From positions 1-64,000 of the forward strand of contig JACPBY010000004.1 in the NCBI GenBank assembly GCA_016180065.1: a DNA stretch of 64,000 nt, written 5' to 3'. Within the stretch, counting starts at the first letter, position 1, and each line of letters starts with the position of its first letter. The notes beneath the pieces were generated by a model. It did not search any database and had not been told where the DNA came from. It was given only the letters and a program-made list of their open reading frames with translations. This DNA is from Candidatus Woesearchaeota archaeon (GTDB lineage: Archaea > Nanobdellota > Nanobdellia > Woesearchaeales > UBA10216). Made by a program: the position numbers and the translations under genes. This document shows, in pieces, positions 30,411-50,456 of the stretch.

Positions 30411-30427
30411 ATGAATCGGATGGTAAG

Positions 30428-30555
30428 CGCCCCCACTGGGAATTGAACCCAGATCTCAGCCTTGCCGTGTCGTTTTTTGGTTGAGCTTTTTGCCCACCAC
30501 AGTGGGGAAAAAGGTCATTCGCGGGGCCGCATCTTGTCCGTTGGACCATAGGGGC
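30428..30555 (-). tRNA. tRNA-Arg(GCG) with a 56-nt intron after the anticodon
   Basis: GCCCCUA/UGGGGGC acceptor; CGGCC-CCGCGAA[intron about 30462-30517]-GGCUG; T arm CUGGG-UUCAAUU-CCCAG. Position 33 reads C rather than U. Confidence 0.8.
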
Positions 30556-44277: not shown

Positions 44278-44397
44278 TCAAAACACCTCACGCAATCATG
44301 CATCAGTTCGCAACCTTCCTTTTGGGCTGCTGCAGTCATATTAATATTTAACTGCGGCAAAAAGTATATAAACCGCCTGCCAGAGCCGTTTTCTTAT

Positions 44398-44552
44398 GCC
44401 CCGGTAGCTTAGACGCTGCCAACAGCGGAGCAACAGGTGGAGCGAGTGACTGTTAACCTCGTTGCCTATACAACTTGGTGAGAAATCACTAGGTCGCCAG
44501 TTCGAGACGCTTTTAAGCGAACGCTTGAGGCGGGAATCTCTGGCCCGGGGCG
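44398..44552 (+). tRNA. tRNA-Asn(GUU) with three introns (D-loop, anticodon loop, T-loop)
   Basis: Acceptor GCCCCGG/CCGGGGC; D arm GCUU-AGAC[44415-44435]GGUG-GAGC; AGUGA-CUGUUAA[44457-44485]-UCACU; GCCAG-UUCGA[44506-44537]CU-CUGGC. Removing 21+29+32 nt leaves 73 nt. TATA-like gtatataaa upstream. Confidence 0.82.
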
Positions 44553-44998: not shown

Positions 44999-45121
44999 GG
45001 GCCCGTAGTTCAGCTTGGCTAGAACGCCGCATGGCACTTGCTCAAGTAAATGCCAGGCGAGTCTGATAATTAGGCAAAATCAGTCAGGCGGAGGTCACGT
45101 GTTCAAGTCACGTCGGGCCCA
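44999..45121 (+). tRNA. tRNA-Ile(GAU) with two introns (anticodon stem about 30/31, and just after the anticodon loop)
   Basis: Acceptor GGGCCCG/CGGGCCC; CCGC[45031-45061]U-CUGAUAA[45070-45086]-GGCGG; T arm ACGUG-UUCAAGU-CACGU. Removing 31+17 nt leaves 75 nt. Confidence 0.8.
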
Positions 45122-45123
45122 CC

Positions 45124-50256: not shown

Positions 50257-50265
50257 CCCTTATAA

Positions 50266-50393
50266 TGAGCCCGCCGGGATTTGAACCCGGATCAATCGGT
50301 TTCCACTGACTTCGTTCGTAGTTTTTTGATTGACCTTTTTCGCAAAAAGGCCACCCGAAGCCGATCGCACTGTCCGGATTGTGCTACAGGCCC
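50266..50393 (-). tRNA. tRNA-Arg(UCG) with a 54-nt intron at 37/38
   Basis: Acceptor GGGCCUG/CGGGCUC; AUCGG-CUUCGG[50301-50354]A-CCGAU; T arm CCGGG-UUCAAAU-CCCGG. Intron has CCUUUUU-GCG-AAAAAGG hairpin. Confidence 0.88.
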
Positions 50394-50456
50394 AAAAGTT
50401 AACACCTGTAAAATGCCGAATAGTATTTAAAGCTATTTCATCTATGGCTAAATGCA

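Follow-up and report, generated by a model that had tools for sequence, protein, structure and literature searches.

Based on covariance-model searches, comparison with orthologous genes and analysis of intron pairing, positions 44398-44552 of the plus strand of the window (the whole 64,000-nt stretch analyzed here) are proposed to be a working and probably the sole tRNA-Asn(GUU) gene of its genome. Its three bulge-helix-bulge (BHB) introns would be spliced by EndA and RtcB, and it belongs to a set of orthologues with 0 to 5 introns; a probability of about 0.93 is assigned to this reading. The source genome is a MAG of 1.06 Mb, 88% complete, in which the window is contig 11. As a non-circular test of the interrupted gene, a covariance model (R2) was trained on 20 distinct uninterrupted tRNA-Asn genes taken only from other Woesearchaeota families of the same order. 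In the 101 kb searched, R2 matched exactly 44398-44552 over model positions 1-73 (55.3 bits, E 2.3e-10), with three insertions, located in the D-loop, the anticodon loop and the T-loop. The 155-nt locus is reduced to 73 nt once introns of 21, 29 and 32 nt are removed at tRNA positions 15/16, 37/38 and 59/60, and the spliced product, GCCCCGGTAGCTTAGCAGGTGGAGCGAGTGACTGTTAATCACTAGGTCGCCAGTTCGAGTCTGGCCCGGGGCG, is an ordinary 73-nt cloverleaf of clear isotype, typed by ARAGORN as tRNA-Asn(gtt). The coordinates, strand, isotype and segment lengths that had been read from the sequence beforehand are thus borne out by R2 and by ARAGORN on the spliced 73-mer. The unspliced gene at 44398-44552 was missed both by ARAGORN and by the Rfam tRNA model at its gathering threshold; because such genes escape these tools, DPANN tRNA sets and completeness estimates may be biased. 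The elements of the locus are as follows.

44365..44371, plus strand: TATA box TATATAA, found in the sequence, 33 nt before the start of the tRNA
44398..44412, plus strand: exon 1, tRNA-Asn nt 1-15 (splicing and R2 alignment)
44413..44433, plus strand: intron 1, 21 nt, D-loop, 15/16 (BHB scoring; same site in relatives of several families)
44434..44455, plus strand: exon 2, nt 16-37, holding the anticodon GUU (splicing and R2 alignment)
44456..44484, plus strand: intron 2, 29 nt, 37/38 (BHB scoring and orthologue comparison)
44485..44506, plus strand: exon 3, nt 38-59 (splicing and R2 alignment)
44507..44538, plus strand: intron 3, 32 nt, T-loop, 59/60 (BHB scoring; same site in G001, G004 and G007)
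44539..44552, plus strand: exon 4, nt 60-73 (splicing and R2 alignment)

Intron boundaries were set from intronless orthologues, in which the D-loop reads AGCAGGTR and the T-loop TTCGAGT, and the exon sequence is common to the intron-free orthologue of G016 and the 20 intronless genes of other families. The exact cut at 37/38 is ambiguous by ±1, with the same product either way. A TATA element also precedes the orthologues in G001, G004 and G005. Between the TATA box and the tRNA 5' end, a palindrome of the form TGACCTTTTTTCTAAAAAGGTCA is found in G005 (L051, 269-291) and at the same place in G004 (L052), and G007 (L050) carries a longer insertion there.

The gene was compared with those of 7 congeners and 11 further family members, all MAGs, and orthologues were located in most of them by BLAST and covariance-model searches. 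The intron sites of tRNA-Asn in each genome are listed below.

G016 and G011: no introns
G014: one intron, 15/16
G015: one intron, 20/21
G007: two introns, 15/16 and 59/60
G002, G003 and G017: two introns each, 15/16 and 37/38
G000 (the window genome): three introns, 15/16, 37/38 and 59/60
G006: three introns, 30/31, 37/38 and 44/45
G008: three introns, 30/31, 37/38 and 43/44
G001: four introns, 30/31, 37/38, 44/45 and 59/60
G005 and G012: four introns each, 15/16, 30/31, 37/38 and 44/45
G004: five introns, 15/16, 30/31, 37/38, 44/45 and 59/60

The 37/38 intron is absent from G007, G014, G015 and G016, and the site is occupied in nine other relatives. Two exons of the five-intron gene of G004 are only 7 nt long, and the gene order around it matches that of the window. 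All 12 complete orthologues splice to 73-nt products typed as tRNA-Asn(gtt). In the alignment (A1) of the nine distinct spliced products, every stem cell is paired (189/189), and compensatory changes occur in 10 of the 21 pairs, against 3.7 ± 1.1 in shuffles. The spliced tRNAs of G004 and G005 are identical, and the T-loop intron is present in G004 and not in G005; the close genomes, whose nearly identical tRNA has anything from 0 to 5 introns, could serve as a natural series for intron gain and loss, this pair being an example. Intron gain and loss would thus appear to have affected at least seven positions in the orthologous set, with up to five introns per gene. In G009, G010 and G018, two of which are at least 95% complete, tRNA-Asn was not found by covariance-model, pattern or BLAST search, and a split or permuted gene, or one with still more interruptions, may be present there. 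The G003 gene (L055, G003:C32) lacks its first 11 nt and abuts the start codon of the upstream gene, which may reflect a deletion or a misassembly, and the G002 gene runs into a stretch of N.

Two helices were scored for each intron, a central one of 4 bp that pairs the final bases of the exon with the intron 3' end and an inner one within the intron, with shuffled introns as the null. At 15/16 of the window gene, the central helix GCUU/GAGC is complete (4/4) and the inner helix CGCUG/CAGCG, the D-loop pairing already pointed out in the sequence-only reading, has 5 bp; the outer helix is absent (hBH-like), and the pairing is strong relative to shuffled introns (p 5e-5). At 59/60, three of four central pairs are accompanied by a 6-bp inner helix, with the T stem as outer helix (p 0.001 vs shuffles). 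The T-loop pairing CGCUU/AAGCG that had also been put forward is possible, but folding favors a longer hairpin instead. The 37/38 motif is the weakest, with two of four central pairs, C32-G(-3) and U33-A(-4) (p 0.08 vs shuffles), so that a BHB-compatible fold, the lack of which at the junctions had been named as a counter-test, is found at two of the three (15/16 and 59/60) and is degenerate at the third. Over the 29 unique introns of the orthologue set, the pairing sum is 184 vs 63 ± 7 for shuffled introns, with a shuffled maximum of 92 in 20,000 trials, a comparison that overstates independence because introns of orthologues are related by descent. Isolated local minimum-energy folds form the BHB at 44/45 and 59/60 of G004 and not at 15/16 or 37/38 of the window gene; because these folds form it for some introns only, covariation was used instead. 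Across families, in 11 variants from the order, the 15/16 intron helix covaries, with 98% of cells paired, 16 cells changed on both sides and a covariation score of 0.465 against 0.180 ± 0.040.

The 2/4 helix at 37/38, together with a local minimum-energy fold that sequesters the 3' site, is what would favor a reading in which only the 15/16 and 59/60 introns are EndA introns, the 37/38 intron being removed by other means or through a BHB in another register. This is considered very improbable: 37/38 is the standard archaeal site, introns at this site in sister genomes show 3/4 to 4/4 central pairs, and the two retained pairs, C32-G(-3) and U33-A(-4), are kept as in loop-type substrates.

Whether the gene is the only copy was addressed with a second covariance model (R1), built from the spliced tRNA-Asn genes of the genus itself. 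At E 1e-7, 44398-44552 is its sole match in the genome, and at E 1e-4 four further matches appear, three of them at tRNA genes typed otherwise by ARAGORN and the fourth (L189) without an Asn anticodon loop. No other tRNA-Asn, and hence no intact tRNA-Asn(GUU) of the kind that had been named as a counter-test, was found by R1 in this MAG, the 88% completeness of which leaves a small doubt over a missing intact copy. That gap, along with the weak 37/38 motif, is where a decaying pseudogene accompanied by an intact tRNA-Asn in an unassembled part of the genome could still be accommodated. Such a reading is judged slimmer again than the previous one, since every stem pairs, the changes are compensatory, and the examined congeners with an interrupted gene hold no intact copy either, the strong R1 matches checked in G001, G003, G004, G005, G006, G007 and G012 being tRNAs for Thr, Lys or other isotypes that lack CTGTTAA. 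No stronger is the idea that an assembly chimera produced the multiple introns, most notably the five of G004. It draws on the MAG origin of all the genomes, on the stretch of N that the G002 gene runs into and on the truncated G003 gene, but every intron site of G004 also holds an intron in three or more other genomes, the spliced G004 product equals that of G005, and the gene order around it is that of the window. Taken with the orthologues, these results favor the earlier proposal that three BHB-type introns probably interrupt a functional tRNA-Asn.

For this spliced, functional gene, a possible processing pathway is as follows. The TATA promoter would drive transcription of a 155-nt precursor, and EndA may cut each intron at its two ends within a local BHB, which would be formed by the final 6 nt of the preceding exon and the intron 3' end. 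RtcB could then join the exons to give the 73-nt tRNA. Because the exon-side strands are all present in the unspliced precursor, no fixed splicing order would be required. All exons located 5' of an intron, including both 7-nt exons of G004, have at least 6 nt, the length required for their own central helix and bulge, and therefore each BHB can form before any other intron is removed. The BHBs can in this sense be autonomous, which concerns what is possible and is not a measurement of splicing order.

The genome encodes RtcB, matched on two contigs (G000:C22:5586-6818, profile 21-426; C23:6170-6328, profile 1-50), a pattern that may reflect a contig break, an intein or a second gene. A single EndA gene (PF01974/PF02778) lies on contig 18 as an ORF of 196-213 aa. 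Its product shows the sequence features of alpha4 enzymes, taken here to be one subunit of about 180 aa with two domains: it has two domains in a single subunit and matches 1a79 over its full length. Its catalytic Tyr, His and Lys positions are invariant in 19 Woesearchaeota sequences, and among named genomes its closest relatives come nearly all from Candidatus Woesearchaeota, mostly from groundwater. A homology search of 22 genomes, taken up to E 10, found no beta subunit or three-unit fusion, with one gene over the cut-off in each; the EndA gene of G013 is split over two contigs. Of the weak PF01974 matches (E 0.008-0.4) considered as a possible second subunit, the two inspected, one in the window genome and one in G016, fall in transketolase-like ORFs and were rejected. 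A CSL/ASL-like loop, defined as a lysine-containing insertion of 15-18 aa (CSL) or 11 aa (ASL), is absent from this EndA and from 28 relatives, which agree with it in length there within 1-2 residues; the site holds a lysine (YGK) without the loop, and S. tokodaii EndA has about 10 extra residues there. The AlphaFold model has a mean pLDDT of 62.8, with much of the catalytic half below 50.

The alpha4 form of EndA is described as narrow in specificity, and the (alpha-beta)2 or epsilon2 forms, mostly with a CSL or ASL, as broad (PMC6379350; PMC4033280; PMC12397907). M. jannaschii alpha4 EndA (1a79), which aligns with the window-genome EndA over its full length nearly without gaps, and the N. 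equitans EndA alpha subunit (3iey_A), its best alignment partner, rank as the two best hits when the family profile is compared with the PDB. Narrow specificity is described for the 1a79 enzyme, whereas the window genome holds non-canonical introns, and N. equitans has a beta subunit, whereas none was found for the window genome (PMC6379350; PMC4033280). The sequence-only reading had assumed a broad-specificity tRNA endonuclease; such an activity is possible, but the sole EndA found is of the alpha type described as narrow. On the other hand, two of the three window motifs (15/16 and 37/38) depart from the strict hBHBh' form, an argument that the endonuclease would need some relaxed activity for these introns, and the missing outer helix at 15/16 together with the degenerate 37/38 motif suggests that EndA, if this single alpha-type enzyme makes the cuts, or an unseen partner, may do more than is credited to the narrow type. 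It is a tentative proposal, put a little short of even odds, that an alpha-only EndA lacking CSL and ASL handles tRNA genes with more disruption than has been reported (five introns, 7-nt exons, autonomous BHBs) by a third, undescribed broad-specificity route or with a non-homologous partner. If either alternative held, the proposed link between CSL/ASL and intron diversity would be broken. According to reviews, non-canonical introns spread in association with (alpha-beta)2 or epsilon2 enzymes that have a special loop, and an archaeal tRNA has three introns at most; the Woesearchaeota lineage appears to break both statements.

Inspection by eye indicates that non-canonical tRNA introns are common in the window genome. 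A tRNA-Ile(GAU) at 44999-45121 of the window (plus strand) contains two introns, of 31 nt in the anticodon stem and 17 nt after the anticodon, both with a central BHB helix of 4/4; the one-intron tRNA-Asp(GTC) called by ARAGORN at 44999-45123 was rejected, as this locus splices to tRNA-Ile(GAU). A shared intron sequence, roughly TGACCTTTTT..AAAAAGCTCAACCAAAAA, occurs in tRNA-Gln(CUG), Thr(CGU), Gly(GCC), Arg(UCG) and, less clearly, Gly(CCC), the loci being window 30427-30555 and 50265-50394 (both minus strand), L005, L008 and L011, with most pairwise z values at 7-17. This sharing suggests that introns may have spread between tRNA genes in this genome, and such spread has been reported for Thermoproteales. 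The palindrome TGACCTTTTTTCTAAAAAGGTCA upstream of some tRNA-Asn orthologues resembles this intron family. Also by eye, the ARAGORN tRNA-SeC(tca) at 50265-50394 (minus strand) looks like an intron-bearing tRNA-Arg(UCG), and on other contigs of this genome L016 342-448 looks like a tRNA-Met(CAU) interrupted in the D-loop and L189 like a tRNA-Lys(UUU) interrupted in the T-loop, each by an intron.

No literature on tRNA introns of Woesearchaeota was found in the collection searched, and three is the largest number of introns per archaeal tRNA stated in the main texts of the papers found. Three-intron genes are described in Thermoproteales, for example Pyrobaculum calidifontis tRNA-Glu(UUC) and P. 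islandicum tRNA-Pro(UGG) (PMC4390854; PMC8450103), and like the window gene they carry, within one tRNA, multiple short BHB introns, both at canonical and at non-canonical sites. In contrast, the window gene belongs to Woesearchaeota (DPANN) and has congeners with four and five introns per gene and two 7-nt exons; furthermore, Thermoproteales EndA is (alpha-beta)2, whereas only the alpha type was found in the window genome. A eukaryotic three-intron tRNA is interrupted by BHB introns in the same three arms, but at 12/13, 37/38 and 53/54 and with a Sen-type endonuclease. In the Asgard groups Atabeyarchaeia and Freyarchaeia, a different phylum, the available text of PMC11291895 describes most tRNA genes as interrupted and more than half of the tRNA genes as having several introns, often non-canonical, as in the window gene, and four or more introns per gene are possible there. 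The earlier assignment of such genes and enzymes to Thermoproteales and ARMAN-type archaea is too narrow as a list, Woesearchaeota and, from the same text, Asgard archaea being intron-rich as well. As far as these main texts go, the window gene is a known type of gene in a new lineage, and its four- and five-intron orthologues pass the stated limit of three.
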